Below, in pieces: positions 1 to 39,393 of a stretch of DNA of 64,000 nt. Below the pieces are notes generated by a model. It saw only the letters and a list, made by a program, of their open reading frames with translations. It did not search any database and had not been told where the DNA came from. How positions within the stretch are numbered: the stretch's first letter is position 1; each line of letters opens with the position of its first letter. Source of the stretch: Acidobacteriota bacterium (GTDB taxonomy: Bacteria > Acidobacteriota > Terriglobia > Acidiferrales > UBA7541); NCBI GenBank assembly GCA_013289835.1, contig JABCZG010000005.1:1-64000 (forward strand), in the 5' to 3' direction. The position numbers were made by a program, and so were the translations under genes.

Positions 1-871
1 CGCGACCGGGCTGCTCTCGGGCGAGACCGGCACCGGCAAGGAAGTCATAGCGCGCGCGATTCATGAACTCAGTCCTCGCCGCAACCGAAATCTCGTCAAG
101 GTGAACTGTGCGGCGATGCCCGCCGGGCTTCTCGAAAGCGAGCTGTTCGGACATGAACGGGGAGCGTTCACCGGCGCGGTCACTTCACACGTGGGCCGCT
201 TTGCGCTTGCCGATCGCGGGACATTGCTCCTCGATGAAATTGGAGATATGCCGCTGGAACTTCAGCCCAAGCTGCTGCGCGTACTCCAGGAACACGAATT
301 CGAGGCCGTCGGTTGCACACGTACCACGCAGGTGGATGTCCGCGTTGTTGTCGCTACCAACCGAGACTTGCGGCAAATGGTTCGCGACCGTGAGTTCCGG
401 GAAGATCTTTACTATCGGCTGAATACTTTCCCGATTTCCTTGCCGCCGCTCCGCGAAAGGAAAGAGGACGTCCGGGAATTCGTGAAGTACTTCGTTGAAC
501 AGTTCGCTACCTCCATGGACAAATTCATTAATACAATCCCCGAGGAGGTCATGAGTGCCATCGTCCGTCACCCTTGGCCCGGGAACGTTCGCGAACTTCA
601 AAACCATGTTGCGCGTGGGGTCATCCTTTCCACGGATGGAGTGTTCGCACCGATAGTGCCGGAGAATTGTGATCCATCACCGGTCGAGATTTCCAATCCG
701 ACGCTGGAGGACAAAGTGCGCCAGGAGATTCTTGCTGCTTGTCAGCGAGCGAATTGGAAGCTGGGTGGTCCGCGGGGAGCAGCGGCGAGACTGGGTCTGA
801 AACGCACCACGTTGTTTTACAAGATGAAACGACTCGGGATTGCGCCGCCTTCGGACAATTGGGAAAACTGA
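1..871 (+). CDS. Sigma-54-dependent transcriptional activator (NtrC-type AAA+ and Fis-like HTH), 5' truncated by window
   Basis: Frame is open from base 2: GETGTGKE Walker [16 protein letters not shown] (GAFTGA loop), [33 protein letters not shown]-terminal Fis-like HTH ([26 protein letters not shown]). Confidence 0.96.
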
Positions 872-995
872 ACTGCGAGTCGAGGCGGAAAGAAGTTACA
901 GGGGACACTGCGGCGGCTTCAAAGCGAGCGCAAATCCAGCTGTTGAGGGAGGGTTGCAAATTCGAATCTAGTTCAGGAGATGATTTTGCACGAAA

Positions 996-1022
996 AAGGC
1001 CGGAATTCTGGATTCCGGCCTT
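996..1022 (-). terminator. Rho-independent terminator, oriented for leftward transcription out of the tRNA-fMet fragment
   Basis: AAGGCCGGAAT-TCTGG-ATTCCGGCCTT perfect 11-bp stem. On the minus strand it is followed by a T run. It lies 13 bp downstream of the tRNA 3' end copy at 1036. Confidence 0.75.
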
Positions 1023-1035
1023 GTCGATCACGAAA

Positions 1036-1090
1036 TGGTTGCGGGGGTCAGATTTGAACTGACGACCTTCGGGTTATGAGCTCGACGAGC
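1036..1090 (-). repeat. Distal attachment site: 3' 55 nt of tRNA-fMet, outer left end of island
   Basis: Matches 39317-39371 of the intact tRNA-fMet with one mismatch (position 1082), including the CCA end. Confidence 0.9.
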
Positions 1091-1163
1091 AAACCCTAAG
1101 TCTTGATGATTCAATTGCCCTTACAGTTCGGAGACCCCCTAAAACCACCCCCAAAACACGGGG

Positions 1164-1183
1164 TTTTGGACGCTAGTTGGACG
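1164..1183 (+). repeat. 20-mer TTTTGGACGCTAGTTGGACG, candidate integrase arm-type site
   Basis: Identical to 39240-39259 (inside the integrase 3' end). 13574-13593 differs by one base. Contains TTGGACG twice, 11 bp apart. Confidence 0.5.
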
Positions 1184-1264
1184 CCAACCATGGTGGGATC
1201 TTCCAGACCCCATTCAACAACAACGGCCTAGGAAACTGCCGTCACACCTTGCTGGACCTGCGAA

Positions 1265-2179
1265 TTAGTTGACCACACCATTCACGTTAACTTGTGCTGC
1301 GTGGCAGTCTGCCCTGCCGGGAGCGCGTTTCTGTTGGTGGCCCGGGACTTTAGGTGCGAAAACGTTGGCAGAATTAGCCTTGCCTTGATCGCATGTGTAG
1401 TCATACGAAGAGAGTTGCTGGTTTGAGGTCGCTAATGGCTTCAATTTGGGGAAGACACGATAGACGTGCGGAGCATTCCACATCTGGAGAACTGCATCGA
1501 AGATTGCTGCGGAATGCGAATCGCACCGCGTGTCGGGGCCGATGCTGGGACTCACATATAGAGTGACGCTGATTGCATTCTTAGTTGAACCACTGTTTGT
1601 GCCGAATTGAATCGTCGAAGCACTCCCAGTCCCCTTATCTAAGTCTGCGGGAACCGTCTGGTCTGTCACGCTGTAGTGAAGAATCATCCAAGTAGTGAAA
1701 CTGCCTTCGGGGTCGGCTTGAGTGACGGGCTGAGTAGCGTTGTACCTAAACTGGGAAGTCATCTTGCTTTCATAGGCGCAGGGCTTGGGTAAAGACAAAG
1801 AGTATGCGGAAGTTGATTGTAAGGCAGCTGTGACAGTACTCGGAGTGACTCCGGTCAGGGGATACAGATATTTCTTGGAAGGCGATGTAGCACTGCAGGG
1901 CAGAGTCGAGAAATCCAAGCGATGAGATCCTATCGATGGCTCTGTGGCATTCGAATAATTGAACCCATCATCTCCTTTGAAGACTGCCATTGTGTGCCCC
2001 AGTTGGGGTGCAACCAAGATGACCCTATTAGTGTCGCCTGGGTCCTGCACGTAGCTCCAGGGCCCGACTACCTCTATTTCGATATTGGTTTGTGCATGCG
2101 ACGCTGTGGAAACAAGACTCAGAAACATAAGGCATAAGACTAACTTGGAAGAGAGAGTGGTCAGCGAACTCGGTGTCAT
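1265..2179 (-). CDS. Exported hypothetical protein, third gene of sigma/CHAT operon
   Basis: Signal-peptide-like N terminus (SSKLVLCLMFLSLVSTASHAQ). Same strand and about 50 bp after the CHAT gene. Confidence 0.7.
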   Translation of the reverse strand: MTPSSLTTLSSKLVLCLMFLSLVSTASHAQTNIEIEVVGPWSYVQDPGDTNRVILVAPQLGHTMAVFKGDDGFNYSNATEPSIGSHRLDFSTLPCSATSPSKKYLYPLTGVTPSTVTAALQSTSAYSLSLPKPCAYESKMTSQFRYNATQPVTQADPEGSFTTWMILHYSVTDQTVPADLDKGTGSASTIQFGTNSGSTKNAISVTLYVSPSIGPDTRCDSHSAAIFDAVLQMWNAPHVYRVFPKLKPLATSNQQLSSYDYTCDQGKANSANVFAPKVPGHQQKRAPGRADCHAAQVNVNGVVN

Positions 2180-2231
2180 TGTGGCCTCCTATACTCGTGC
2201 AATTGTTGAGCCTTATCGATCACAACGAAAC

Positions 2232-5200
2232 TCATGTGGTAGCTGCCTGGGCGCCGAAAACCGTGAAGGCAGCCCAATAGAAAGGATGGCCGGACGAGAC
2301 CTGCCCGCGCAGAGCGTTCTGCGCCTCGAACAGAGACTCTTCCACAGACGAGCCGTGCAACAGCTGTGTGTAGAATTCGACCATGAAGCGGCGGGTTAGG
2401 CCGGAATCGACGTCCCACCGGCTCGCAACGACGCGCGGTATACCTGCACGAACCAAATACACAACAAGGCTGTCGGGAGCGTCGACGCTTCCAAGCGCGC
2501 CGGCCTCGGTGTTACAGGCCGAAAGAACCACGAGGCGGGTACTCGACACGGTTAGTTTTTCTAGGGAGTTGGCCGTGAGGGCTGAATCGGAGAGCAGGAG
2601 TCCGGGCGTTAAGTAGGAGTTCGAAGCGTGCCCGGCAAAATGAAAAACACCGGCGAGAGGAATCTCTCGTAGTGTGTGTTGTAGCGTGGCGGTGCGACCT
2701 ATGAGCAAGTGAGCAGACTTAAACATGCTAGCGACAGCCTGGCCCTCAGGAACGACGTCCGGCAACCCAAGGAGTTGGTTCCCAGTGTCCCGATGAGGAG
2801 CTGAGACTGCGACAACCAAAGCCGGCGTCTCACGGCTTATCCTGAGAACAAGCGTTTCCTGTCGCGAGTAAAGGACCCCAAGTGATGACATGATCGGGCC
2901 GCGTTCCCCTAAGTAGTGGTTGTTTCTGTCAAGCAGAGCTTCCATGGGAAGGCCGTCGAGTCCTTCGTCGAGTTCGACTATCAGAGTCCGACCGGGTTGC
3001 AAGTAGGGTTCAATGGGAGCGACCAGAAGCTCATATAGGTGCTCCGCCTGATGCCGAACGAGGACGAGATCGGACCCAGGACGCGAGCACAGGTCGCGGA
3101 AGGTCTCTGCGGAGGCTAAGAGTTCCGCGGCGGATACGGAGATGCGCTCGAAATGGACGCCGCGGTTGTCGGAAGCCCATATGAGCAGTTGTTTTGGAAA
3201 AATGACGTAGGTGATTAAGGTGGCTCTGGACAATCCGGGTAAATATGAACTCACTTGCCAAAGAGCTGCGTTTCTAAGCATTGCCTTATCTCCGGATTCT
3301 TGGGAACTGAGATTCGGAATACGTGCCGGAGCCGCCTTGAATGCTTCCCAAGACTGGAGGGCGCCTTCCGCATCGCCTTTTGAAACGAGGAGAGAAACCA
3401 AGTCGCGATATGGCTCGGAGGAACGGAGCTTCCATTCAAGTCGTGATTTGACGTCCCGTACCGATTGCAACTGCAATTCAGCTAGTCGAATGGCTGAGCG
3501 CAAGGATGCCTCGGCCTCTTTGGTATCTCCTTCGGTCACCAACGCCTTGGCGAAGTTGTCGTAGAAGAGAACCTTAAGGTAGTTGTCGGAAAGCCGATTT
3601 ACCTCCGCCGAAATCAAGCGAAGTCGCGAGAGCGCAGACTCGCTCTGACCTGTTGACGTCTCGACCCCAGCAAGTCTCGTTTCTGCCTCCAGGTGAGCCA
3701 ACCGTGTGGCCTCCGTTTTTGGAGAACGTGCGAACAGTTCGGTCGCCCGCTCAAACTCGCGGAGTGCTTCGAATGAGTCTTGAGTGGCCAACGAGGAATT
3801 GGCGGATAGTGAGTGGGCGACCGCGACTTGCGCCAAATCGGGAGATGATTCTGCAAGTGGAATGGCTTCTTTCCAAATCGATACCTCCAGAAATGGTTCC
3901 TGTCTGAAGCGTGCGGTCTCATATAGGCTGTAGTAAAAGTTGTAGCCTCGGACATCGGAGAAGTTTCCACCCCAGAACTCTTTTAGCCCGTCGGTGGCGA
4001 GCCGCCATGCCAAGGCATAATCTCCGCTGGCACCGGCCGCCATAGACCAGTGGTCTTGGGCCCCAAGCAGAATAGTTCCGTAGTTGGTTGCTTTCGCTTG
4101 CGTTGCGGCGGACGAATACGAGTCCAGCGCACCTCCTAGATTTTCGTGAAGCCACTGACAATTTCCTTCTTGGATGCGGTATTTGATCCCTAACCAGGGA
4201 TAGAGACGCAGTTGAGGGTTATCGCGAAGTGGTCCGAGTCGGCTAGCACATTGATCTGCGTTTTGTCCCAGGTTGGAGGCGTAGAGGTCCTCGATGTTTG
4301 CTCGAACTATCGCCGCCTTATTCCAGCCGCCTCGACGGGAGTATTGAACTGCGAGAACAGCGTTCTTGTGAGCTGCATCCGTGGACCCGCTTTCGTTGGC
4401 TTGAATCGCAGAGGAAAGATACCTTAGCGCGGCGGGAAATAGAGGCGAGGAAGACCCGCTCAAAAGGTCTGTCCACCAGCGATCAGAGTGTCGGGTCAGG
4501 GAAATGGCAGCCAGTTTTTGCAATGCGGCGCGGGCATCTGCTGATTCGACTGAGCTAGAGGCTGCAATTGGAAACGCGAGAGGGAGCCACTGCGAGACCG
4601 CCGTATCGTAATAGGTCTCCAAGTGCTGATCAACCGCATCGATCACCACGGGCTGATCAAGGTCCAAAGCGGCGAATTGACTTGGCGTGAGCAGCGGCTG
4701 AAGGCTGCCCTGTTTTCTCTTTCCTTGTTCCTGCTTCGCCTCAACTAGTCTCGAACGAGCCTCGTCTGCCCATGGACCCGTCGGGTCAATTTGAAGATAG
4801 GCTTGCCAGTCCTCAATTGTCTGGGAGAAGAGGAGGGCCTTGCGCGAGATTATCGCGCGATTGAATAAGACAACCGGGTCGCGAGGGGAGTTCTGCAGCG
4901 CCTTACCAAGAACGTCGACGGCCTGTCCGTAGTCCTGTGGGTTGCCGGTCGCATCCCCACGTTGGGAATAGGCGGTACCAAGGTCAACAAGAAGAGATGG
5001 AGAATTCGGTTTCGCAGCGAGGGCTTCACGAAGTGCGTCAATCGCACCGCTATAGTTTCCTTCGAGGAGCTCTGCTCGTGCGCGGCTTTGCAGCCAGAAC
5101 GGGTCGGATGGGTTCTTTGCCAGATTGTTTGTAATCTCTTTTTCAGCTTCGAGGAGAGACGGTGGACTGTCCAAGTGCGAAGTCTCCACAGCACGTTGAA

Positions 5201-5876
5201 TTCTAAGCGGAGCACACGCGGCGCCGGGCATCCTAGGCTCGAAGTTGCGCCGTTCAGTATAAGCGGTGACTAGGAGCTTTTCGACGCGACGCTCGGGACG
5301 CGGTAACAAAATCCAAATGAGAACAGCGAACAACGCGACGACCGAACATGCAAAAACTGGCAACTTCCATGACCACCTGGCCTGGTACATGCGAGTGCTT
5401 TGTTCTCGGGGACACGCTGATGCGCTTAATTGGTTTGACATCCTCTTCTGCCATTCCAGGGAACTGCTTTTTAAGTTGGCGACGATCTGCGTTTCCTCCG
5501 GGGAGGTGGGGTCAGAGAAGTCTTGAATAACCTGTTTCAACAGGGGGCCACAATGGTCGCACTGAACTGCATGGTCCAGCATCGTTTGCGACATATCTTG
5601 CTGCACAAGTCCAGCCGCTACCTTCAACCATTCTTCATTGCTCGGACACAATTCAGTCCTGTCCGCCGAAACCAACGTCTCCAGGCATGCAAGCTTCTGA
5701 ATCATTGCCAGCCGTTCTTCAACGCGGCGGCGGCAATCGAGACAGGTTGAGAGATGGCTTGCGGCCGTTGGAGCGACAACAGCCGATTGACCAGAAGTCG
5801 CATGGCCCGGGCCCGAGATGCCTGCTAGCCGGTCAAGCTCATCTTCGGTCAGGTGTTGATCACCTGGTTTGAGCAT
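2232..5876 (-). CDS. Membrane protein: anti-sigma-type zinc finger motifs, TM helix, TPR region, C-terminal CHAT (caspase-like) protease
   Basis: N terminus has HLSTCLDC and HAVQCDHC (two HxxxCxxC motifs), TM segment LPVFACSVVALFAVLIWILLP, TPR-like repeats, then CHAT His/Cys dyad VFHFAGHASNSY...RLVVLSACNTEAG. Start set at the ATG at 5876 (AAGGAG upstream), not the longer ORF. Confidence 0.88.
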   Translation of the reverse strand: MLKPGDQHLTEDELDRLAGISGPGHATSGQSAVVAPTAASHLSTCLDCRRRVEERLAMIQKLACLETLVSADRTELCPSNEEWLKVAAGLVQQDMSQTMLDHAVQCDHCGPLLKQVIQDFSDPTSPEETQIVANLKSSSLEWQKRMSNQLSASACPREQSTRMYQARWSWKLPVFACSVVALFAVLIWILLPRPERRVEKLLVTAYTERRNFEPRMPGAACAPLRIQRAVETSHLDSPPSLLEAEKEITNNLAKNPSDPFWLQSRARAELLEGNYSGAIDALREALAAKPNSPSLLVDLGTAYSQRGDATGNPQDYGQAVDVLGKALQNSPRDPVVLFNRAIISRKALLFSQTIEDWQAYLQIDPTGPWADEARSRLVEAKQEQGKRKQGSLQPLLTPSQFAALDLDQPVVIDAVDQHLETYYDTAVSQWLPLAFPIAASSSVESADARAALQKLAAISLTRHSDRWWTDLLSGSSSPLFPAALRYLSSAIQANESGSTDAAHKNAVLAVQYSRRGGWNKAAIVRANIEDLYASNLGQNADQCASRLGPLRDNPQLRLYPWLGIKYRIQEGNCQWLHENLGGALDSYSSAATQAKATNYGTILLGAQDHWSMAAGASGDYALAWRLATDGLKEFWGGNFSDVRGYNFYYSLYETARFRQEPFLEVSIWKEAIPLAESSPDLAQVAVAHSLSANSSLATQDSFEALREFERATELFARSPKTEATRLAHLEAETRLAGVETSTGQSESALSRLRLISAEVNRLSDNYLKVLFYDNFAKALVTEGDTKEAEASLRSAIRLAELQLQSVRDVKSRLEWKLRSSEPYRDLVSLLVSKGDAEGALQSWEAFKAAPARIPNLSSQESGDKAMLRNAALWQVSSYLPGLSRATLITYVIFPKQLLIWASDNRGVHFERISVSAAELLASAETFRDLCSRPGSDLVLVRHQAEHLYELLVAPIEPYLQPGRTLIVELDEGLDGLPMEALLDRNNHYLGERGPIMSSLGVLYSRQETLVLRISRETPALVVAVSAPHRDTGNQLLGLPDVVPEGQAVASMFKSAHLLIGRTATLQHTLREIPLAGVFHFAGHASNSYLTPGLLLSDSALTANSLEKLTVSSTRLVVLSACNTEAGALGSVDAPDSLVVYLVRAGIPRVVASRWDVDSGLTRRFMVEFYTQLLHGSSVEESLFEAQNALRGQVSSGHPFYWAAFTVFGAQAATT

Positions 5877-5893
5877 GCTACTGCGCTCCTTCC

Positions 5894-6574
5894 CTATAAC
5901 GACTCCGCTTGATGAAATCCTTTTGCTCCCTGAGCATCCGGTCCGCCAGGACCGGAGATGCTTTCTCGGATCAATCGGGTCAAGCGAAATAACACACTCT
6001 CCACGCCCTTCGTAGTCAGACCCACTGTGGGAAGTGACGCGATGGCGCTCGCCGTCAATCCCGAACGGTAGTACAGCCAAAAAACGGTGCGATCACGTTG
6101 GAACTCGCGCTCAGGCACAACCTCCTTCAACTTGCGATCGATCTGATCGATAAGCACGGCTCGCTCGGGGTCGTTCAAGGAGCTCTTCGGAGGTTCCCAA
6201 CCAACTGTTGCCGATGTCTCCTCGACTGAGTCCGCTGTTGATTCGGGTGCTCGCTTGTCAGCGAGACGCGACTTAAAGTGATCCTGCGCGACATTTGCTG
6301 CGACGACTTTAAGGAATGCAAAGGCCGACTCAGGCTGCCTCGGACTGAACCTTCGAAGTAGCGCGCATTCGTTGGCACAAATCCTCAGGTAGGTCTCTTG
6401 CACGAGGTCGTCAACAAGCGCTTTATTGGAAATTCCATAGCGCATGGCGACGCGCAGCACCGTGCGCGCAATCAGCGGATTGAAACGGCGGATGAATTCT
6501 TGCCAGCAGGCCGCATCACCGGCGCCAGAACAGAGAGAAAAAAGCTCCGGTGAGGATAGATCCGCATAATTCAT
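5894..6574 (-). CDS. RNA polymerase ECF-type sigma-70 family factor
   Basis: Region 2 (ALVDDLVQETYLRICANE), region 4 (VFWLYYRSGLTASAIASLPTVGLTTKGVESVLFRLTRLIR). Stop is 17 bp before the CHAT gene start. Confidence 0.85.
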   Translation of the reverse strand: MNYADLSSPELFSLCSGAGDAACWQEFIRRFNPLIARTVLRVAMRYGISNKALVDDLVQETYLRICANECALLRRFSPRQPESAFAFLKVVAANVAQDHFKSRLADKRAPESTADSVEETSATVGWEPPKSSLNDPERAVLIDQIDRKLKEVVPEREFQRDRTVFWLYYRSGLTASAIASLPTVGLTTKGVESVLFRLTRLIRESISGPGGPDAQGAKGFHQAESL

Positions 6575-6909
6575 CGAGGGCCGGGACCTCCAGATGACGC
6601 CGATTGTACCTTACACCGCGGCAATTCACTTACAAGGTACTCGCCATCTATCGTGGGGATTTCACCGCCCGCTTCGTGCGCGAATGGTGCAATCGTAACC
6701 GATCTCAGTCAAAGAACTTTGTTCCATCGTCATTGCGCTCTCCGGGTATAACGATTTCGCTCGGTTGTCGAAAGGGATTTTCTTTGCCCTGTCGTTTTTG
6801 ATGACATGCGTCGCTGTCGGGCGGAGGCCCAAAGTTCGTTTTCCGCCTCGGAATCCTTCGTTCTGACGCGGACCCGGAAGTGTGCTTAGAGATTGGGGAG
6901 GAAATATAC

Positions 6910-7908
6910 ATGCAGATTTCGAAGATTTTGGGACTCGGAACCATCTGTTTTTTGCTTGCAAGTTCTGCTAGCTATACGCGCGCCCAAACAATCAGAGTCC
7001 CGACATATCAGATCACTCCGTCTCCTGTACCGGCCGCACCTGGTGCACCAGCAGCAGCTCCACCTCCTACTCCACCTGCTGGTTGTTGGCTACTGCCAAC
7101 CCGATCACATTGTATGGACTTCGGATCAGGCATAGATTCGAACATAAATACGTTCTTTGGCACCAATGGCTCGCTCTCGTATTTCAACCAAATCAAGTCC
7201 ATTTACAATGGAGCGTCTGGTTCTGCGACTGTTTCAGCCGATTTGGCATCCCTCAACTTCTCTAAAGGAGTACAGGTAACGGTCGGGACTAATATACAAG
7301 CGGGATCCTCGGGCACGACGACCGTCAGCTCGGGTACCATCCCTACGTTATCCGCCAATGGCGCCGGGCAAGCGACTCAAAATGTGTTATATGGAGGAAC
7401 GTTTCTTGTCTCAGCGCTTTATCCGTTGCTTGCAACGGGAGGAAATAAGCTGGGCTCAACTGGAGGTCTCGGCACACTAATAGACGTGATAGCCAAGGAA
7501 GGCGTTGATATACAGAACTTTAAGTCCGGGACGAATGTCAATGTTACATCCCCTCCCTCTCACACTAGCGTACAAATCGAAGGATATCTTCAATACAACT
7601 CTATTAATTTGGCGCCTAATTCCAAGAATTTTGCAGGTGCGTTGTTTGTGGGCGGCAGTTATGGCTACGGCTTCATGTCTCATGGCTACGCGAGAGACTA
7701 TGGATTCGGAAATGATGTCAATAACGGGATCGGTCAAGTTTCATTCGGTATTTTGATAAGTGGCGTAGCCAAGATTGCGTTTTCCCGTGCGTTTGGGCCG
7801 TCGCAGACCTATATCGATAATACCTCGATGGTGAAAACGACAGTAAACAACTTCAAATCTTGGTCATTTGGAATATCGTATCAATCTCCCCCGCCCGCCT
7901 CGAAATAA
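6910..7908 (+). CDS. Exported hypothetical protein with proline-rich segment, divergent from the sigma operon
   Basis: Signal peptide MQISKILGLGTICFLLASSASYTRAQ; PAAPGAPAAAPPPTPPAG tract. RBS GGAGG before ATG 6910. Confidence 0.7.
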   Translation: MQISKILGLGTICFLLASSASYTRAQTIRVPTYQITPSPVPAAPGAPAAAPPPTPPAGCWLLPTRSHCMDFGSGIDSNINTFFGTNGSLSYFNQIKSIYNGASGSATVSADLASLNFSKGVQVTVGTNIQAGSSGTTTVSSGTIPTLSANGAGQATQNVLYGGTFLVSALYPLLATGGNKLGSTGGLGTLIDVIAKEGVDIQNFKSGTNVNVTSPPSHTSVQIEGYLQYNSINLAPNSKNFAGALFVGGSYGYGFMSHGYARDYGFGNDVNNGIGQVSFGILISGVAKIAFSRAFGPSQTYIDNTSMVKTTVNNFKSWSFGISYQSPPPASK

Positions 7909-7953
7909 ACCACGGAATCTCGGGATTCTGGACCAACGGAATATGTTTGGAGG

Positions 7954-9333
7954 GTGGAGATGAAGATTTTCAATAGTGCGGCGAGGTTCAGTGCAACTAG
8001 TGTCTTTTGTCTAGTCATCATGTGTGCGGCCCACGGTCAAACTGTGACAAAGGTCGTCGATCATGGGCCCGACGGCGAGAAGCTTACATTCGTGGTGCTT
8101 GGCGATGGTTATGCAGCAGGTGACCAAACCAAGTTCGCACAAGATGTTAATCGATTGCTTGTCAACGGCGTATTCGGCCACGATTTCTACAAAGATAACT
8201 TCCCGGCTTTCAATATGTATCGGGTTGACTTGGTGTCGCACGAATCCGGTGTTAGTTCGCCGAGCGATTCAAAAGACACTGCACTGAAGGTCATTTACAG
8301 CGGCGATTGGAGCCGTTGCTGGCTGGAAGAGTCGCGAGATACAGACCAACTAATTGTCGATGCAACTGTCGGCGTGAAGAAAATCGATTTCGTCCTGATT
8401 ATTGCGAACGAAGCCGGGTATGGAGGTTGCCAGCGTGGTGGGCGGCTCTACATCACTGCAGGTGACGACTGGGATGTTGTCGCTCATGAATACGGCCATG
8501 GGATAGCAGGATTGTACGACGAGTATAGCGTGAGCGGGGCTTACAGCACGCCGCCGATCAACGTGAAAAACTGTTCCACGGTGACCAGTCGAACTGGAGT
8601 TTCATGGGCCAAACTTATTGCGAGCACCACGCCTGTGCCTTCGGACAAAGCAAAGGGGCTGGATCCAAATCAGACTGTCGGCATATTCACAGGCTGCGAC
8701 TATGCTTTGTCGGGGATCTATCGGCCTGTCTCGGACTGCAGAATGAAATCAAACACTCCTCACTTTTGCCCTGTGTGTCTCGGACTGATGAACCGAGCTG
8801 TCAAGCCCTATCTGCCAACCCCCACCGGGGGTAGAGCGGCGGCAGCCAACCCTGGCTCGCCTACTAAATATGTGAACCTCGTCGTGAGAATGAGCCTTAC
8901 AGGACAGCCGCAAATACTGCGGGCGACTCAACTTGACGGGCGCGTTGTGCCCACAACGAACTCAATTCCCGCATATATATTCGCCTTCTCAAAAAACGAG
9001 AAACCGAGCTTTGTACAATACTTGCCTGACAGTCCGTTTGTAGTACGAGGATTTGTAGATCCAAGGCACCCGGAGAAGGGAGAAAGCCTGTCTCAGTCAG
9101 ACTCGGCTACCGTTATTGTAAATGTTCCCGAAACAGATATAAGTTCGGCAATGCAAAATTTGGGTTTGCAGGTGTACAAGGTAGAACCGGACGCCGCAAG
9201 CATGTTTAAGGAGCAAAGGGCCACGGACGTGGGTTCGCTGTTGAACGCCCTCATCAAGAATAAAGCCATCGCACTACAGTCGGAACTCCCTAAATCAAAG
9301 ATGGGGGACGCACTGAGAGCAGTACAACCATAG
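7954..9333 (+). CDS. Exported M64-family-like metallopeptidase
   Basis: Signal peptide; DWDVVAHEYGHGIAGLYDEY (HExxH and downstream DEY); early VVLGDGYAAGDQTKFAQDVNRL typical of M64. Confidence 0.88.
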   Translation: MEMKIFNSAARFSATSVFCLVIMCAAHGQTVTKVVDHGPDGEKLTFVVLGDGYAAGDQTKFAQDVNRLLVNGVFGHDFYKDNFPAFNMYRVDLVSHESGVSSPSDSKDTALKVIYSGDWSRCWLEESRDTDQLIVDATVGVKKIDFVLIIANEAGYGGCQRGGRLYITAGDDWDVVAHEYGHGIAGLYDEYSVSGAYSTPPINVKNCSTVTSRTGVSWAKLIASTTPVPSDKAKGLDPNQTVGIFTGCDYALSGIYRPVSDCRMKSNTPHFCPVCLGLMNRAVKPYLPTPTGGRAAAANPGSPTKYVNLVVRMSLTGQPQILRATQLDGRVVPTTNSIPAYIFAFSKNEKPSFVQYLPDSPFVVRGFVDPRHPEKGESLSQSDSATVIVNVPETDISSAMQNLGLQVYKVEPDAASMFKEQRATDVGSLLNALIKNKAIALQSELPKSKMGDALRAVQP

Positions 9334-9416
9334 ATTGCTGTCCCGGCGAGACTGCTGGCGAGAATTAAGGAACATTGCCTCGGAGAGAATCTAGGACGCA
9401 CAATTGACCTGATGCC

Positions 9417-10034
9417 ATGTTCTATGATTCGCGTCTGATGATTGTTTTTAGCCTGCTGCTCTGGCCCGGAATCTTCGAGATGGGATTACGACCTGTCGAT
9501 TGGGCGATCCGGACCCTCGTTTCGTTTTCTGTGTGCGAACCCCAGCAACGCTCAGGTGCGAAACAAACAGACTCTGAACGTGAGACTTACGTGAACGTCA
9601 CCTTAAGACTGCGAACCGGCGAAAAACCAGAGATCGTCCGAACAACGCAAGTTGAGGGAAAGTTGATTGTGAGAGAGGCTCCTTCGTCCAAGTTTGTATA
9701 TGAGGTTGTTAAGGATAACACTTCGTACGCTGTCGGGTTCCTGCCGCAGGGGGGCTTCGAACTGAGAGGATTCAGCGATCGGACGAGCAGTCGGGAAGAA
9801 AAGAAGAGCGAGACGAGCTCCACGACTGTTACGTTAGCCATTCCCAACATGCGACTAGAGACGCTGCGAAATGGACAGGTCGGATTTCGCATCTATGAGA
9901 TACGTTCGGGAGTCGAGTTAGAACCGATCTCCAAAGATGCTCTCAAGCGCTTAGTCTCCAACAAATCAGCCTTCATTCGATCTGAAATTACGGGTTCCGC
10001 GGTTGCCAATGGTATGCGTGAAAAATCGCGGTAG
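9417..10034 (+). CDS. Hypothetical protein homologous to C-terminal domain of the M64 peptidase
   Basis: VNVTLRLRTGEKPEIVRTTQVEGKLIVRE...FLPQGGFELRGFSDR aligns by eye with VNLVVRMSLTGQPQILRATQLDGRVVPT...YLPDSPFVVRGFVDP of the preceding gene. Confidence 0.7.
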   Translation: MFYDSRLMIVFSLLLWPGIFEMGLRPVDWAIRTLVSFSVCEPQQRSGAKQTDSERETYVNVTLRLRTGEKPEIVRTTQVEGKLIVREAPSSKFVYEVVKDNTSYAVGFLPQGGFELRGFSDRTSSREEKKSETSSTTVTLAIPNMRLETLRNGQVGFRIYEIRSGVELEPISKDALKRLVSNKSAFIRSEITGSAVANGMREKSR

Positions 10035-10352
10035 CTAATGCAACTAACTGAGGCGGAAATACTCGCGCCAGGCGAGAAGAACTTGACGTAGCGATGGCAG
10101 CCCCCGAGGCTTCAGGCTGGCTTGGCCTGATCCTACGTAACGCCTGGATTCTCAATCACGGCCATCTAAGAACTGAACCATTTGGACGGCGCGCTTGAAA
10201 GATAAATGCTGGCTGCTGTGCTGAGCCTGCAGCCATAAATCAGGTCCGTTTTCGGCGGAGTGCAAGAAGGGAATTCTTCCTGGAGGTCGTTATTTCAATT
10301 GTAGGCTCGTCATAAGTCGAACTGATCGTCGTTGACGAAAGTTGGGGACATC

Positions 10353-11771
10353 ATGAGAACCCGCGAACAATGGACTGTATTCGTCATAGCTGTGCTTTTC
10401 CTTGCCTGCGCGTCGCCGTACGCTGATGCCGCTAGTGCATCACAAGCGAAATGGACAATATTGATTTTCATGAACGGCGATAACAATCTGGAGCCCGATG
10501 CGCTGATCAATTTTAAGCAACTTTCCAGAGTTGGGAGTTCGGATGCGGTGAATGTCGTGGTCCAGTTTGATCGAATCGCGAAATACGATCATAGCTTTGG
10601 AAACTGGCCGCAAACTCTACGTTTCCGGGTTACGAAAGACATGGATCCGCTGCCGGCAAATGCTTTGGAAGACATCGGTGAGGCGGACATGGGCGATGGC
10701 AAAGTCCTCGCGGACTTCGTGCTCTGGGGAATGCAGAAATTCCCAGCGAAGCATTACATGCTCATAATTTGGGACCACGGGCAGGGCTGGCGCTTATTCA
10801 CCGCAAACCTATTGAGGCGCGCGCGAACGGTTTCTAAGTCGCGGGCAATAGCACCGGCGGACAATGCTCGTGGCCTGCGTGCCGAATCGGTATTAGTTCG
10901 AAATGCTGACGGAGTCGCCTCATCGCAAGGTCAGACGGCGCCGTTCCGGAGTGCCCCAGGAGCTCCATATCGCTCGGTGTCCAACGACGAGACAAATCAG
11001 GATGTTCTGTACAACCGAAAGATTCAAGACTCATTGGAGGAGGCACTCCATGGCAAGAAGCTGGACGTTATAGGCTTTGATGCTTGTTTGATGTCGATGA
11101 TTGAGACAGCCTATGCCCTCCGGAATATTGGCGACTACATGATAGGCAGCGAAGAACTTGAGCCGGGTCTTGGGTGGAAGTATGACGACTGGCTAAAGGC
11201 GGTCGAAGCCAACGCAGATGCGGACGGTGAGACCTTGGCCAAGGTTACCGTCGATGAGTACAAGCAAACCTATACAGCGGAAGCGACTGCGGATCCGGCA
11301 ACGACACTTGCGGTATTTGATTTGACGAAGACCGCCCAGTTAGCGAAGGCTGTTTCTGACCTAGGCACCTCTTTGACTGCAAAGCTCGATTCTGAACTTC
11401 AGGGAATCATAGAAGCACGCTCCAGCACGATGACTTATGCGCCGGGCTACGATTTTTATCACGTTGACCTCGGAGAGTTTGTCAGACAGCTGGCCAACAA
11501 GACTTCTGACCAGAATGTTCTCTCCAATATAAAGACTATTCAAAATGTACTATCGGCTGGCGTGGTAGCGAACTACGCCGGACAAGACAGATTGGGAGCG
11601 TATGGTTCGACAGGCCTGGCGATCTACTTCCCTGCAACCGAACGTGACCATTTGAATGATCCTTACTCCGAAGGGGGATACGAGAAGGACAACACTTACT
11701 TCCCAGTTCAGTTTGTCCAGAACGAAAAATGGGCCGATTTTCTGCATGCCTACTGGAGTAGGGTGCCATGA
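10353..11771 (+). CDS. Exported C11 (clostripain-family) cysteine protease
   Basis: Signal peptide (FVIAVLFLACASPYADAA), TILIFMNGDNNLE, catalytic-type MLIIWDHGQGW (His) and DVIGFDACLMSMIETAYAL (Cys). Confidence 0.9.
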   Translation: MRTREQWTVFVIAVLFLACASPYADAASASQAKWTILIFMNGDNNLEPDALINFKQLSRVGSSDAVNVVVQFDRIAKYDHSFGNWPQTLRFRVTKDMDPLPANALEDIGEADMGDGKVLADFVLWGMQKFPAKHYMLIIWDHGQGWRLFTANLLRRARTVSKSRAIAPADNARGLRAESVLVRNADGVASSQGQTAPFRSAPGAPYRSVSNDETNQDVLYNRKIQDSLEEALHGKKLDVIGFDACLMSMIETAYALRNIGDYMIGSEELEPGLGWKYDDWLKAVEANADADGETLAKVTVDEYKQTYTAEATADPATTLAVFDLTKTAQLAKAVSDLGTSLTAKLDSELQGIIEARSSTMTYAPGYDFYHVDLGEFVRQLANKTSDQNVLSNIKTIQNVLSAGVVANYAGQDRLGAYGSTGLAIYFPATERDHLNDPYSEGGYEKDNTYFPVQFVQNEKWADFLHAYWSRVP

Positions 11772-12937
11772 TTTCATGGGTTATACTCGCCGCGACGCTT
11801 TTTTCAAGTGTTACACCAACGAAATGCACTCTGAGCGATTCTACCGGGCATGACAGGGGATTGGCGCTTGTCATCGGAAACGCTTCCTATCCTGCGGCCG
11901 GACTGAAGACCACATACGCGGATGCTTGCGAGTTCGGTCAGACGTTAAGCACTTTAGGCTACAGCGTCGATCTGCGATTTGACTTAGGAGGTGCAGAGTT
12001 AACCAGTGCCGTCCAGCGACTGGCGCAAGGCGCGGCTGGAAAGAACCTGCCTGTGGTCTTCTATTTTGCGGGTCACGGATTTCAAATCAACGGTGTCAAC
12101 TATCTTCTGCCAGTCGATTTCAACGCTGCACATCCCGAAGAGATCGCTCCACATACACTAAGTCTCGATACGATCCTCACGTCCATGAAAGCGCTAGGTA
12201 GCGGCACCAAGATTGTCATTCTCGATGCCTGCAGAGCCGATCCCCTGGCTCAGAACACGCCAACCGACTGGGAGGTTGGTTTTGCACCGCCAACAAATCT
12301 ACCACCGAATACACTGGTCGCTTACTCGACGGCCGCAGGAAGCATTGCCGCTGACGGCGGAGTCGGATCACATTCGCCCTACGCCCGAGCTCTTTTAAAG
12401 TACAGTTCGCAACCTGGAATGGCCGTGGAAGACGTATTTAAGAGTGTCCGCGATAGCGTGATCGCAAATACCGATGGTGAACAGACGCCCTCGGAATACA
12501 CTTCTCTGCTGAAGACTTTCTATTTTAGGGATCCGATTTATGCCGTTGCTCGGATCACGGACGGGGACGATGACGTAATCGTTATGGTGAATAGCGTGGA
12601 AGTTGCGGAGTGGAGCTTGGATGGAAGCAACGTCAAGCGCGCTATCCTCAAGACGGGCCTCAATCCTGTCGAGATCAAGGTCTATAACCAACGCAGCTAC
12701 ACAGGCGGGATTCCGCCGTTTGGTCATCAGCCTGAAGGCTGGCGATATAGCGTCGATCTGATGGATACACTCAACCGTTCGCTAGTTCACTTACAGGATG
12801 GAGAAGATCGTCCAGCCGACAACGGTCCACGTCACGGAAAGACCTTTACGGTGGCTAGGTTCAACCTGCTGGTGCATGAGGATACGGGCGCCATCGACGT
12901 AGTCGATCGCGACTTCGACTATTGGAAACATCACTAG
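11768..12937 (+). CDS. Exported C14 caspase-like protease
   Basis: LALVIGNASYPAAGLKTTYADACEFGQTL, FYFAGHGFQINGVNYLLP (His), KIVILDACRADP (Cys). ATGA overlap with the C11 gene. Confidence 0.9.
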   Translation: MISWVILAATLFSSVTPTKCTLSDSTGHDRGLALVIGNASYPAAGLKTTYADACEFGQTLSTLGYSVDLRFDLGGAELTSAVQRLAQGAAGKNLPVVFYFAGHGFQINGVNYLLPVDFNAAHPEEIAPHTLSLDTILTSMKALGSGTKIVILDACRADPLAQNTPTDWEVGFAPPTNLPPNTLVAYSTAAGSIAADGGVGSHSPYARALLKYSSQPGMAVEDVFKSVRDSVIANTDGEQTPSEYTSLLKTFYFRDPIYAVARITDGDDDVIVMVNSVEVAEWSLDGSNVKRAILKTGLNPVEIKVYNQRSYTGGIPPFGHQPEGWRYSVDLMDTLNRSLVHLQDGEDRPADNGPRHGKTFTVARFNLLVHEDTGAIDVVDRDFDYWKHH

Positions 12938-12992
12938 ACTCACCGTTCGCCACGGCTCGCAGGATCTTTTCAACACGACAAATTCGTGCGAA

Positions 12993-13421
12993 GTGATGCA
13001 ACCGTTCGCGCGTGCATTTCGTTTCACGAAGGGCCTCGTCGACCGCTTTCGAGAGCACCGCGCTGGCCAGCTTGCGCCGGTATTTGAGACAGTCCGCGAT
13101 TGTCTTAGCGACACTGTAGACGCGGACGGGTTTCTGGACTCGCGCAATGTCCTGGATGTGTTGCAGCGAGCGGGGAGACAAGGCGGATACCACGCCTTCC
13201 GCCGCTTTCGTTTTGCGGTACTCCGCAAGGCGGGAGTGCCGGACGGCCTCATCAAACTGTGGCCGGGCCATTCGCAAAACTTGATCGACCTCTACGCGGC
13301 GCAACTGCGGTACGACGACACTTATCGGAGAGGATGGTGCGAGAGAGCTGGTTTGGGATTTGAGTTGGGCGAATTGGGCTATAAATTGCACGTGCCGATT
13401 CGCCCGGCGCTCGTTGCGTAA
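12993..13421 (+). pseudogene. C-terminal relic of tyrosine recombinase (relic 1)
   Basis: GGYHAFRRFRFAVLRKAGVPDGLIKLWPGHSQNLIDLYAAQL retains HxxR/GH/Y-type motifs but the N-terminal and core domains are absent. Ends 27 bp before the att copy at 13448. Confidence 0.7.
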
Positions 13422-13447
13422 GACTTTCCTGAAACAGGACTTAGAAA

Positions 13448-13493
13448 TGGTTGCGGGGGGCAGATTTGAACTGACGACCTTCGGGTTATGAGC
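13448..13493 (-). repeat. Internal attachment site: tRNA-fMet 3' end fragment
   Basis: 46-nt match to 39317-39362 with one mismatch. Shares downstream TAAGTCTTGATGATTCAATTGCCCTT with the copy at 1036. Confidence 0.88.
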
Positions 13494-13794
13494 GAAGGGC
13501 ACACGCTAAGTCTTGATGATTCAATTGCCCTTCCGGTTCGTCTACCCCCCAAAAACCAGCTCTCCAAACGGAGTTTTGGACGCTTGTTGGACGCCAGCTC
13601 GTTAGACTGATCCTAAAGCACCCCACTCCCTCACACCACAGCAATGGCTTGATCCGGGATTGGCCTCCAGAATTGTCCCAGAGGGGCGATCGTTACTCCT
13701 TCGCGGGCTTAACTTGCGCTTTAATGCAAAACGTCTGATATGTGTAAGATCATGGGCTCTCCTAGCCGATGGTGGCGGGCCTCATTTATAAAGT

Positions 13795-15018
13795 GTGGCA
13801 AGGGAGGAGGACGCAGTGGCCGCTGAGCCTGATGGACCTTGGAAAGATTGGGTTCCGGGAGTATTGAACAATGTTCAGCTTACCAATCTTTGTGAGAAAG
13901 GGTTGATTACGGGGAAGAGCTTGGCCGGTCTAAGAGAGGCCATTGGGCTTTCTTCCATCGATTTGTCACTCTCTGATGAAGGCTATGAGCTTGTCGATGG
14001 TGCAGTCAAACCGGTAGGGCCGGACGCCTACGACTGGTTCATTAAGAATCATGGCCTTGCAAAGCAGTTGGAAAAATCAGATCCAGAAGGCTACACGCTG
14101 AAGAGTGGTAAGACTTACGTTTTCAGACTAAACGAAAACCTAGACAGGCGACTTGCCGATGCAGGTATCTATGGTCAAGCAACTGCGAAAAGTTCGGTGG
14201 GTCGGGTGGACGTACTTGCAAGATTAATTGTAGATGGAATGGATACCTATGAAGGCTTCGACCCAGAAGGATTGGATCGCAGATGCGGCAATTTGTATCT
14301 CGAAATTACACCGATTACCTTCGATGTCAAAGTGAAAGCCGATATCAAGCTGTCCCAGCTGAGATTGTTTTATGGCAGACCGGAGAATGTCGAAATAAGA
14401 GGGCCAGAAGTCTTCAAGACCATTTTTCGAGGGGCGGGGCAGCGAGACGGTACCCTGAGCGTCGACCTTACAAACGTTAAAGAAGGAACATTGGAAGTAG
14501 CGGCGTTTTGCTCCCACCGTGGTCGGTCGGTTGAACCGATACCACTTTGGAAGAAAGATGTCAGGCCTGATCCTTGTAAGCACTGGAAATTTATCACTGC
14601 GACTTCAGCGAAGCGGTTGAAGATTGAAGATACGAAGTTTTACATCCTTAGATCGAAAGAGACGCTTGCAGTCCCACGCGGAATAGCAGTCTACTGCAGG
14701 GCCAGCGATGAGACGATTGGGGAGATGAGGATCCACTACGCGGGATTCGCCCACCCTCTCTTTGGAAGGGAACGAACAGACGGAAGGGTTGGAACTCCCC
14801 TAATATTTGAGGTCCGTGGCCATCAAGTGAATGTGAGTCTGGCAGATGGCGAAAAAATGGCGAATATAATACTCTATCGAATGTCTGAGGATTGCAGCGT
14901 CCCAGACAAAAAAGACAAGCCGTATGAAGAACAAACGCTTAAACTTTCCGACTTTTTCGCGAAGTGGCCAGACAAGTTAAAGAAGATGGATGAGGACGGC
15001 ACAGTTGAACCAGCTTAA
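13795..15018 (+). CDS. dCTP deaminase-like protein (long form), GTG start
   Basis: SSIDLSLS, GYTLKSGKTYVFRLNENLD, IYGQATAKSSVGRVDVLARLIVDGMDTYEGF, C-terminal PYEEQTLKLSDFFAKW. Confidence 0.72.
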   Translation: MAREEDAVAAEPDGPWKDWVPGVLNNVQLTNLCEKGLITGKSLAGLREAIGLSSIDLSLSDEGYELVDGAVKPVGPDAYDWFIKNHGLAKQLEKSDPEGYTLKSGKTYVFRLNENLDRRLADAGIYGQATAKSSVGRVDVLARLIVDGMDTYEGFDPEGLDRRCGNLYLEITPITFDVKVKADIKLSQLRLFYGRPENVEIRGPEVFKTIFRGAGQRDGTLSVDLTNVKEGTLEVAAFCSHRGRSVEPIPLWKKDVRPDPCKHWKFITATSAKRLKIEDTKFYILRSKETLAVPRGIAVYCRASDETIGEMRIHYAGFAHPLFGRERTDGRVGTPLIFEVRGHQVNVSLADGEKMANIILYRMSEDCSVPDKKDKPYEEQTLKLSDFFAKWPDKLKKMDEDGTVEPA

Positions 15019-16093
15019 GTGGAATGAAAAAAGATTTCTTTTTCCTCTCAAGGCCGACGTGCGTGTGATCGAGCTTGGGGAAAAGGATGCCAGTACTGAG
15101 AACGATTATATCCGAGACTTGAAAGGCTTAATTTCTTCAAGTCAAGAGATGTATCCCGGTATCGACCGTTGGTTCAAAGAAAAAGTAATCCCGGGTCTGA
15201 GGTCGTCGGAGCGCATCGCCTATCTTGGTTACGAGAACAATAGGCCAATCGCGTCCGCGGTTTTGAAGCGTGGTGCAAAGTCCAAAATTTGCCATTTGAA
15301 GATTGACCAAACTTTTCAGGATCTGTATTTAGGTCAGATGTTTTTCATACAAATGACAGCTGAGATCTTGCATCAGGCCGAGCAAATACATTTCACTCTT
15401 CCCGAGAGTTTGTGGGCAAGCAGAAGCGGGTTTTTTGAATCATTCGGTTTTATGGGTGTCACAAAAGCGTTGCGTCAATACCGATCCGGTGACGACGAAC
15501 TAGTGTGCAGGGCTCCCATTAGTCTTGTTTGGTCCGCAGCTCTGGAAAAATTGCCTCAGCTACTTAAAAGGTTTTCTGTGGATGGGCGTACGGGAGACAG
15601 CAGCGTTCTATTGAGCATCAAACCGAAATACGCTGAGCGAATACTTGGTGGAGAGAAATCGATCGAGATAAGGAAGAAATTTTCCAAAAAATGGTTAGGC
15701 AAGAAAGTAGTCCTCTATGCCTCTCGGCCGATTAGCGCAGTCGTCGGCGAAGCCACAATCGCGTCAATTGTGGAGGGACAACCCTCCGAAATCTGGGCGC
15801 ATTGTGCACCAGGCCTCGGATGCTCAAGGTCAGAATACGAAGAATATGCAGCTTCATGCTTGCGTGTGAGCGCAATTGAACTATGTAATGTGCAGCGATA
15901 TCAACCCGCGATTCCACGAGCCCAGATGTCAGATCTAGTTGGTCGACCCCTCTTGCCGCCGCAGTCGTACCTCGAGCTGAATTGCAGGAAGCACGGAGGT
16001 TGGGAAAGTGCTATCTCGCTTATAACTATGCTAGATGGAAGCGTTGGACGTCAGCGAGCCATCGAAGCCATGAAAAGCCATGAAAAGCCATGA
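14990..16093 (+). CDS. GNAT-like N-terminal domain fused to ASCH domain
   Basis: C-terminal LLSIKPKYAERILGGEKSIEIRKKF...VVLYASRPISAVVGEATI is ASCH-like. N terminus resembles GNAT (IAYLGYENNRPIASAVLKRG...). Overlaps the deaminase gene by 29 bp. Confidence 0.7.
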   Translation: MRTAQLNQLKWNEKRFLFPLKADVRVIELGEKDASTENDYIRDLKGLISSSQEMYPGIDRWFKEKVIPGLRSSERIAYLGYENNRPIASAVLKRGAKSKICHLKIDQTFQDLYLGQMFFIQMTAEILHQAEQIHFTLPESLWASRSGFFESFGFMGVTKALRQYRSGDDELVCRAPISLVWSAALEKLPQLLKRFSVDGRTGDSSVLLSIKPKYAERILGGEKSIEIRKKFSKKWLGKKVVLYASRPISAVVGEATIASIVEGQPSEIWAHCAPGLGCSRSEYEEYAASCLRVSAIELCNVQRYQPAIPRAQMSDLVGRPLLPPQSYLELNCRKHGGWESAISLITMLDGSVGRQRAIEAMKSHEKP

Positions 16094-22185: not shown

Positions 22186-23178
22186 GTGGTCACAACTGAA
22201 GCGGCTCTGACCCTCGCTCTGGCCCAGGAGAAAGAACAGGTGGCCGTTCAATCTTTATGGAAGCATTTTCAATCGTTTTTTGGTCGTTTGAATCCTGGAT
22301 CTTCCTTCGAGCTGACGGCATCAAGTCAGCACAACACAATTCGGGGATTGATCGAAAATCGAAATGGACCTGCGGCCGAGTTGTGGCCGACTACATTTCT
22401 GCAAGGATCGTACCGACAACAGACGGCGATCTATACGATCAGTGACGTCGATATCGTTGCCCTCTGCAATTTGAGTTTTCCCGGAGCACCAGGCGGGGGC
22501 GGCAGGTCGTATGGCCGCGATGAGATTTTCCGAATTATCGCGGCACCGTTGTTTGCCGATGGCCGGTATCGCGACAAGGTAATCTACAGACCCCAAAGTA
22601 TGTGTATCAAAGTTGATCTAGGGATCAAAATCGAGATTTTACCGGTTGTATTCAAGGCCGGTACGACAGACATAGATGTTGAACCGTTCGTCTTGTATCG
22701 ACCCGAAAGCGCAAAATGGGAAGACGGCTTTGCGCGATATCATCAGAGATGGCTTTCGTACAAAAACTCTGCGGAGAGAACGAACGGAAACTTCATTCCG
22801 GCAATTAAAGTACTGAAGCACATTCGCACGATGTTCGGCCTTAACGCAGCGTCATTTCATATCGAATGCCTTCTCTACTTCCTCGCGGATACTGTATTTC
22901 AAGGTGGCCCAGCAGACTACATCGCTTCATTTCTCCGAACTATAGCCATGTACACGCCAGACGCATGGTATAAGGCGAACGTCATGACTCCGTGCGGCGA
23001 TCGCGATATTTTCACGTGTACCGAATGGGGTGCTCAGGATTGGTGGAAGTTTCACGCCATTGTCTCGAAATGCTCAAACCTCGCACAGGCCGCAATAAGC
23101 ACCCAGAGCGAAAGTCAAGCAATTGAGGTATGGCAGACAATCTTGGGCAAGGACTTCTTTCCTGCGAGGGTAGAATGA
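22186..23178 (+). CDS. CD-NTase (cGAS/DncV-like nucleotidyltransferase), CBASS
   Basis: FLQGSYRQQTAIYTISDVDIVALC (GS...DxD) and conserved KVDLGIKIEILPVVF region; adjacent patatin effector. Confidence 0.85.
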   Translation: MVTTEAALTLALAQEKEQVAVQSLWKHFQSFFGRLNPGSSFELTASSQHNTIRGLIENRNGPAAELWPTTFLQGSYRQQTAIYTISDVDIVALCNLSFPGAPGGGGRSYGRDEIFRIIAAPLFADGRYRDKVIYRPQSMCIKVDLGIKIEILPVVFKAGTTDIDVEPFVLYRPESAKWEDGFARYHQRWLSYKNSAERTNGNFIPAIKVLKHIRTMFGLNAASFHIECLLYFLADTVFQGGPADYIASFLRTIAMYTPDAWYKANVMTPCGDRDIFTCTEWGAQDWWKFHAIVSKCSNLAQAAISTQSESQAIEVWQTILGKDFFPARVE

Positions 23179-24113
23179 GGCGCATTCTTGTCATCGACGG
23201 AGGAGGAATCAAAGGAGTGGTACCGGCGTCGCTCTTGGCGCATGTCGAGGAGTCGCTCCCACACAAAATCTCGGATTACTTTGATCTCATCGCTGGAACT
23301 TCGACGGGCGGTATCATCGCCTTGGGACTTGGACTTGGCTTGTCAGCGCGGGAAACGCTCGCATTCTACGAAGCACACGGCCCAGCAATCTTCCACGGCA
23401 ACGCGAAGTTCCGAGCTTTTCGCGCATGGTTTCGCGCGAAATACGATCCAAGACCGCTCCGATTGGCTCTTCAAACGGTCTTTGGCGAGCGTTCTCTCGG
23501 CGAGAGCACAAAACGATTGGTGATTCCTTCATTCAACGTGGACACCGGAGAAGTTCATGTCTGGAAAACTGCCCACGATCCGAAGCTTGAGCGAGACTAT
23601 CGGAGTCTCGTCGTCGATGTTGCAATGTCCACGGCAGCCGCGCCGACATACTTTCCAACCCATCAGCTCGATTGCGGGACACCTCTAATTGATGGAGGGA
23701 TGTGGGCAAATAATCCGATCGCAGTTGCGGTGGTCGAAGCAATAGGGATTTTGAAATGGGCGGCCGCCGATTTGAGGGTTCTTAGCTTGGGATGCACGAC
23801 CAAGGCTTTGAACATAGATTGGGGACGACGACATTCACTGGGAAAGTTCGGCTGGGCCGAAAAGGTTGCTGAGGTGTTTCTTGCCGGACAATCGTCGGGG
23901 GCCACGGGCATGGCTCAGCATTTAGTACCAGACCGCGGCAATGTTGTGCGAATTTCACCTTTGGTAGGCGATCGGTACGAGCTCGATAGCTGCACAGACA
24001 TTCCTTCGTTGAAAGGACTTGGGGCATCCGAAGCGCGAAAGGCCCTCCCGCAGCTTAAGCCGATGTTTTTTACGGAACCGGTAAGTGAGATATTCAAGCC
24101 ATTCCACACTTGA
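23175..24113 (+). CDS. Patatin-like phospholipase, CapV-like CBASS effector
   Basis: ILVIDGGGIKGVVPASLL, LIAGTSTGGIIAL (GxSxG), LIDGGMWANNPI (DGG). ATGA overlap with CD-NTase. Confidence 0.9.
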   Translation: MRRILVIDGGGIKGVVPASLLAHVEESLPHKISDYFDLIAGTSTGGIIALGLGLGLSARETLAFYEAHGPAIFHGNAKFRAFRAWFRAKYDPRPLRLALQTVFGERSLGESTKRLVIPSFNVDTGEVHVWKTAHDPKLERDYRSLVVDVAMSTAAAPTYFPTHQLDCGTPLIDGGMWANNPIAVAVVEAIGILKWAAADLRVLSLGCTTKALNIDWGRRHSLGKFGWAEKVAEVFLAGQSSGATGMAQHLVPDRGNVVRISPLVGDRYELDSCTDIPSLKGLGASEARKALPQLKPMFFTEPVSEIFKPFHT

Positions 24114-37978: not shown

Positions 37979-38125
37979 ACACGGAGAGCAATGGCGAGTG
38001 CCCCGAACGGATAGAAGCAATTGCTTTTGCACAGGCCGGCGGATTTGATGCGTGACCCTATGCACCTGGACTCTGATAAACTTTCGCCCCATAGGGCGAT
38101 TGAGTCATCGAGAGAAAGAGACTCG

Positions 38126-39316: not shown

Positions 39317-39393
<77 letters not shown>

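Follow-up and report, generated by a model that had tools for sequence, protein, structure and literature searches.

A candidate CRISPR-independent sigma/CHAT protease switch with exchangeable peptidases, carried by a tRNA-Met integrative element of an Acidobacteriota bacterium

In the open literature that we searched, a few described systems resemble the locus analyzed here. Craspase of the type III-E CRISPR systems comprises Cas7-11, the TPR-CHAT protease Csx29, Csx30, and CASP-sigma, and proteolysis is proposed to free the sigma factor (PMC10028731). The ECF54 extracytoplasmic function (ECF) sigma factors of Actinobacteria have CHAT, subtilase, and carboxypeptidase genes in their context and are described without an anti-sigma factor (PMC8999054, citing Casas-Pastor 2021). 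EACC2-caspase systems combine a constant caspase-like module with an ECF sigma factor, a TPR protein, and variable partner domains that include trypsin (PMC8195603). In CalpL/CalpT/CalpS, a protease cleaves the anti-sigma factor and frees sigma, and in SAVED-CHAT the CHAT protein starts a proteolytic cascade (PMC11229360). We examined a sigma–CHAT–peptidase locus of an Acidobacteriota bacterium near the start of contig C5 (JABCZG010000005.1; assembly of 4.53 Mb in 39 contigs), whose first 64 kb are referred to as the window. We regard it as an even call that the locus, which travels on an integrative element in this genome, is a sigma/CHAT switch that is anchored in the membrane, needs no CRISPR, and has peptidase outputs that can be exchanged.

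A gene check of the window located all eight genes of the locus where a preliminary description had placed them, and the Pfam matches confirmed its gene content (Table 1). The left arm is a triad of an ECF-type sigma factor, a large CHAT protein, and a third gene, hereafter the partner; the divergent right arm encodes an exported protein and the M64, C11, and C14 peptidases. The sigma factor also matched TIGR02937 (E 1e-10), with 41.2 bits, just under the cut-off of 42.9. Pfam offered no family for the partner, the first right-arm protein, or the stand-alone M64 C-terminal domain, and NCBIfam was likewise without a match for the first right-arm protein. The stand-alone copy that the preliminary description had recognized was recovered by comparison with the C-terminal part of the M64 protein. 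The M64 protein carries the Peptidase_M64 motif HEYGHGIAGLYDEY, and M64, C11 (DHG...DAC), and C14 (GHG...DAC) all retain their active-site motifs. Signal-peptide-like N-termini, called from hydropathy and reading by eye with no dedicated predictor, were found in the three peptidases, the first right-arm protein, and the partner.

Table 1. Features of the sigma–CHAT–peptidase locus and of the tRNA-Met attachment sites in the window
Feature	Position	Strand	Evidence or remark
Distal attachment repeat	1032-1081	-	46 bp = tRNA-Met positions 32-77, within a 50-nt repeat
Protein of undescribed family, third gene of triad (partner)	1265-2179	-	Signal-peptide-like start; family hidden Markov model
Anti-sigma–membrane helix–TPR–CHAT protease	2232-5876	-	PF12770 1e-50 + TPRs
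ECF-type sigma factor	5894-6574	-	PF04542 (Sigma70_r2) 3e-7, above cut-off
Candidate sigma-dependent promoter of right arm, CGAAAGG-N15-GTCGTT	6769-6796	+	Conservation with G001
Exported protein, first right-arm gene; C-terminus barrel-like by eye	6910-7908	+	
Exported M64-type metallopeptidase, divergent, with C-terminal domain	7954-9333	+	PF09471 1e-30
Stand-alone copy of M64 C-terminal domain	9417-10034	+	26% identity, E 4e-16
Exported clostripain-type peptidase C11	10332-11771	+	PF03415 7e-47
Exported caspase-type peptidase C14	11768-12937	+	PF00656 8e-34
Degenerate tyrosine-recombinase C-terminus	12993-13421	+	Beside attachment site; mainly read from sequence
Proximal attachment repeat	13444-13493	-	50 nt, 98% identical to 1032-1081
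Intact tRNA-Met(CAT), target of both tandem elements	39317-39393	-	

The locus shares with Craspase a TPR-CHAT protease with a His/Cys dyad, an ECF-type sigma factor, and a small partner protein. In contrast to Craspase, no Cas7-11 protein or Cas7 domain was found by Pfam among the locus proteins, the anti-sigma factor is fused to the protease and anchored in the membrane, the partner family matches no known family, and variable peptidases are added. No CRISPR-like repeats occur in positions 1-16000 of the window, in accordance with the CRISPR independence proposed earlier. The view of the locus as a counterpart of Craspase stands as an analogy and fails as membership; the likeness to ECF54 and to conflict systems that combine a caspase with an ECF sigma factor had also been overlooked. 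Our loci and the described ECF54 neighborhoods have in common the grouping of an ECF sigma factor with CHAT and subtilase genes and a proposed proteolytic control; the membrane anti-sigma fused to CHAT, the partner family, and the many peptidase families set our loci apart from the ECF54 description. The EACC2-caspase systems, as described, resemble the locus in the constant caspase-like module, ECF sigma factor, TPR, and variable partners including trypsin, but differ in domain architecture and in having C14 rather than CHAT as the constant protease; no EACC domain was matched by Pfam in the locus proteins, although Pfam may not model both EACC domains. Proteolytic release of sigma, as described for CalpL/CalpT/CalpS, is likewise proposed for our locus, and a CHAT-started cascade would parallel SAVED-CHAT; unlike these systems, the locus has no SAVED or CARF sensor and no Cas10 link and is membrane-anchored. 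PADLOC returned weak, generic matches only (SAVED_CHAT 1e-4, caspase 3e-8), with no system core model among them. The combination of a fused membrane anti-sigma–CHAT protein, the partner family, and exchangeable peptidases is not described in the portion of the open literature covered by our searches, which is no proof of novelty.

The CHAT protein begins at ATG 5876 rather than at a TTG at 6080. Two HX3CX2C zinc-finger motifs are followed by one strong hydrophobic segment (residues 173-192), TPRs, and the CHAT domain with the catalytic pair H1083 and C1121. The positively charged N-terminal flank of the hydrophobic segment predicts an N-in topology, so that the arrangement appears to be that of a ZAS-type (zinc-binding) anti-sigma factor, with a HX3CX2C domain predicted as cytoplasmic, a single membrane helix, and the sigma gene adjacent. 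Together with a CHAT domain predicted outside, this layout suggests envelope sensing and proteolytic release of sigma. The His/Cys pair is invariant in all 79 proteins compared, although overall identity to the window protein drops to 18-34%. The 81 loci fetched bear out the sigma/anti-sigma/TPR-CHAT core of the preliminary description.

Full-length TPR-CHAT relatives occur in several families of the phylum. Profile searches, whose counts include partial matches, detected relatives in 14 of 396 genomes from the phylum; the numbers were 37 of 200 for a single family and 58 of 162 for a single class. Whole or nearly whole relatives were present in 4 of 88 family members. Two clades of one phylum are distinguished below as Terriglobia-type and Blastocatellia-type, labels of ours that rest on gene content. 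Genes around the relatives were called by our own script, and their starts are approximate. The sigma gene occupies the position immediately before TPR-CHAT in 69 of the 81 loci and the one before that in 4. In 71 loci, the gene after TPR-CHAT is on the same strand and encodes 180-450 aa. A family with a shorter CHAT protein departs from this order, its partner being convergent with CHAT and sigma not adjacent. Convergent pairs of a CHAT protein of ~600-800 aa and a partner that often bears a signal peptide are multicopy in G440 and G667 (L237-L247), with up to 11 partner genes per genome. A split form was also observed (L195-L197), in which sigma, a separate ~315-aa gene that is a possible anti-sigma factor, a shorter TPR-CHAT gene (~1050 aa), and a ~250-aa third gene are found together.

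The partner defines a family tied to CHAT by position. A profile built from the window partner and iterated over 1064 neighboring proteins recruited 22 members, all at +1 or +2 of TPR-CHAT. One built from a Blastocatellia-type partner recruited 42 members, with 41 of them found at +1 to +3. Their union has 72 members in the 81 loci, 71 of them at +1 to +3 of CHAT. The two halves have no common member at threshold and are joined by position, size, and weak sub-threshold similarity. Across the 162 genomes of one class, partners were found in 42, CHAT in 58, and both in 40 (p about 2e-21, treating related genomes as independent, which they are not). In the rearranged order of f81, the partner and CHAT are still adjacent and convergent. 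No significant match to the family was found in Pfam, NCBIfam, PADLOC, or PDB, the profile giving chance-level matches only against PDB, and the window partner folded alone yielded a useless model (predicted local distance difference test score, pLDDT, of 34). A Cys within the last 30 residues occurs in 65 of 72 partners versus 139 of 501 size-matched other proteins, and the Blastocatellia-type half has an invariant His near the N-terminus; the two residues possibly form a catalytic or metal site. With Csx30 as the analogy (PMC10028731), the leading candidate for a CHAT substrate is the partner. Partner-family genes also occur near a sigma gene and a ~1000-aa protein instead of TPR-CHAT (L241 5804-6709 and L249 5885-6742), and that protein resembles a Ser/Thr kinase linked to sigma. 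We also considered whether partner export varies together with CHAT topology and rejected this idea, since the CHAT proteins of both clades are predicted as N-in with an extracytoplasmic C-terminal part.

Genes following the triad are predominantly peptidases in the Blastocatellia-type loci. The 41 loci contain 27 same-strand genes after the partner or partners, and 23 of the 25 that could be judged match a peptidase family (19 clear and 4 weak matches); the remaining two are a radical-SAM protein and a gene called a non-peptidase by eye. Among 20 random distal genes of the same loci, 2 were peptidases (Fisher p 2e-7, or 7e-5 with clear matches only). Some of the first genes tested had been picked by eye, and the full list is therefore the figure quoted. 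In the other Blastocatellia-type loci the next gene is missing or on the opposite strand, and two such genes are also peptidases. The families found after the triad are S8, C14, C39, C70, M91, trypsin, Nal1-like trypsin, retropepsin-like aspartyl peptidase, and Met-zincin. Among Terriglobia-type loci, two have a convergent C11 gene adjoining CHAT and one a divergent proteasome-like gene (weak match), and the congener G001, whose sigma factor is 65% identical to that of the window, encodes a trypsin in its divergent arm.

The preliminary description had bound the sigma arm to a particular quartet of M64, the M64 C-terminal copy, C11, and C14, and had named co-occurrence in other genomes as the check. 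Of 89 family genomes, none besides the one studied here contains C11, and M64 was found in 4 of 95 genomes of the order; by that check, the two arms as originally written are therefore independent. A genome-contig scan with C11 gave only distant C11 proteins elsewhere, and viral contigs searched with M64 gave no relatives. The idea of a protease cascade coupled to sigma can be kept if it is widened: the core keeps company with a peptidase, and the kind of peptidase is exchangeable rather than fixed.

A candidate sigma-dependent promoter for the right arm fits the switch over this arm that the preliminary description had envisaged. The divergent intergenic regions of the window and G001 share a 28-bp segment that is 86% identical, lies in the same place, and points towards the right arm in both. 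It contains -35/-10-like blocks separated by 15 bp, and the remainder of the region hardly aligns. The pattern has one match in the window versus 0.06 expected. A looser version has two matches in the genome G000, and reversed-pattern controls gave 2 and 4. The pattern by itself therefore lacks specificity, and the weight lies on its conserved place. An apparent motif upstream of the partner gene was also considered as a promoter and is read instead as the conserved C-terminal codons of CHAT.

A 12.4-kb integrative element whose integrase has decayed carries the locus as its cargo. Three copies of the 3' half of tRNA-Met(CAT) are present in direct orientation, one of them in the complete tRNA gene, and the 12.4 kb between the two partial copies contain exactly the peptidase/sigma–CHAT locus and the recombinase remnant, the latter at the place expected of an integrase. 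The direct repeats of the tRNA 3' end thus flank the element on both sides, and its integrase is only a remnant, which shows a short, weak alignment (30% over 33 aa, E 0.04) to the intact integrase encoded at 38060-39313. These repeats and the remnant substantiate carriage on a mobile element, which had been suggested earlier; the repeats themselves and the conserved third-gene family had been overlooked by a description whose genes were otherwise correct. Flanking repeats of 104 nt (80%) stand beside both tRNA fragments (1083-1186 and 13493-13596) and are possibly integrase arm sites. Neither the plasmid nor the phage records searched contained anything near the element itself.

A second element (13494-39316), which carries the intact integrase, occupies the same tRNA and is a CBASS-type defense island. 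Its genes encode a CD-NTase (22186-23178), a CapV-type patatin effector (23175-24113), a TCAD9-type protein, E1-JAB and E2 proteins, two HNH nucleases, a WYL regulator, and a dCTP-deaminase-like protein. The congener G021 has a 93% identical integrase at the same tRNA-Met (L257 3119-4369), where the cargo is partly different. G+C content changes at 39.4 kb from 0.53 to 0.58. The tRNA-Met gene and the pilin gene next to it recur together in several congeners, and the genes on the far side of the tRNA differ, indicating an integration hotspot. Comparison with empty sites covers the tRNA side only, because the contig begins at the left flank of the element and congeners have multiple copies of the sigma-54 activator found there.

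Under the switch that we favor, the cytoplasmic zinc-finger part of the CHAT protein would hold the ECF sigma factor at rest. An envelope signal sensed by the extracytoplasmic TPR part would activate the CHAT protease, which may act on the exported partner, on itself, or on both, and thereby break the anti-sigma hold. The freed sigma factor would then fire the candidate promoter and switch on the exported protein, M64, C11, and C14, and the induced peptidases would act as sigma-dependent effectors in the envelope or outside the cell, possibly in conflict or defense. Several observations weigh against this scheme. The promoter rests on two genomes, and no such motif shared by all clades was found. 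Nearly all Blastocatellia-type proteins are without zinc-finger motifs in the N-terminal part. Most Blastocatellia-type partners and neighboring peptidases are without signal peptides while their CHAT is predicted to be extracytoplasmic, which may place partner and protease in different compartments in some loci. Most Terriglobia-type loci have no peptidase beside the triad, and the exact window set of M64, C11, and C14 recurs in no relative.

Part of the evidence could be accommodated by an ordinary envelope-stress or nutrient-scavenging regulon, in which the ECF sigma factor induces secreted proteases and CHAT is a sensor shut-off or processing domain. An ECF sigma factor with a membrane anti-sigma factor is the classical layout, the window peptidases have signal-peptide-like starts, and soil acidobacteria secrete many proteases. 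However, such a regulon would not account for the link between CHAT and a partner family that evolves fast, for the peptidases of the other class, which lack signal peptides, for the swapping of peptidase families at a single position, or for the carriage of the locus as sole cargo of a small integrative element, and we consider it rather unlikely. An anti-phage or abortive-infection role, with CHAT triggering the switch on infection and the peptidases killing or disabling the cell, draws on the neighboring CBASS-type genes at the same tRNA site of a mobile element, on the diversifying effectors, and on precedents for CHAT/sigma pairs in type III-E CRISPR (PMC10028731) and proteolytic sigma release in CalpL/CalpT/CalpS (PMC11229360). 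It appears improbable given the weak and generic PADLOC matches, the exported peptidases and partner, which are unusual for phage defense, and searches that found no CHAT-protein relative among 50,697 phage records and no full-length one among 72,556 plasmid records.

The partner might instead be a peptidase inhibitor, an immunity protein that CHAT destroys to unleash the peptidase. Its frequent position between CHAT and the peptidase and its fast evolution would suit an inhibitor, as would the peptidases of the class with cytoplasmic partners, which seem cytoplasmic too; we nevertheless find this doubtful, because many Terriglobia-type loci have a partner without a neighboring peptidase and the partner stays with CHAT even where neither sigma nor a peptidase is adjacent. 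That M64, C11, and C14 are seen as a set nowhere else would be expected if the right arm were an unrelated gene set sharing the element, with sigma, CHAT, and the partner as the only unit. The short shared element with nothing else in it, the conserved promoter-like site, the trypsin that the locus with the closest sigma relative has in its divergent arm, and the strong peptidase association elsewhere make such an unrelated arm unlikely.

The favored switch might extend to an undescribed class of CRISPR-independent protease conflict systems in Acidobacteria-type bacteria, composed of sigma, anti-sigma–TPR–CHAT, a partner/substrate family, and an exchangeable peptidase, and partly spread by integrative elements; we put this at somewhat below an even chance. 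Craspase ties a TPR-CHAT protease to sigma, but RNA guidance is always part of that link. A version that is widespread, free of CRISPR, and built with the protease fused to the anti-sigma factor would show the work of such proteases without CRISPR, and its partner family would supply a natural candidate for the substrate. It would also make the question of which peptidase does what a testable one, nature having placed at least eight peptidase families in one position.
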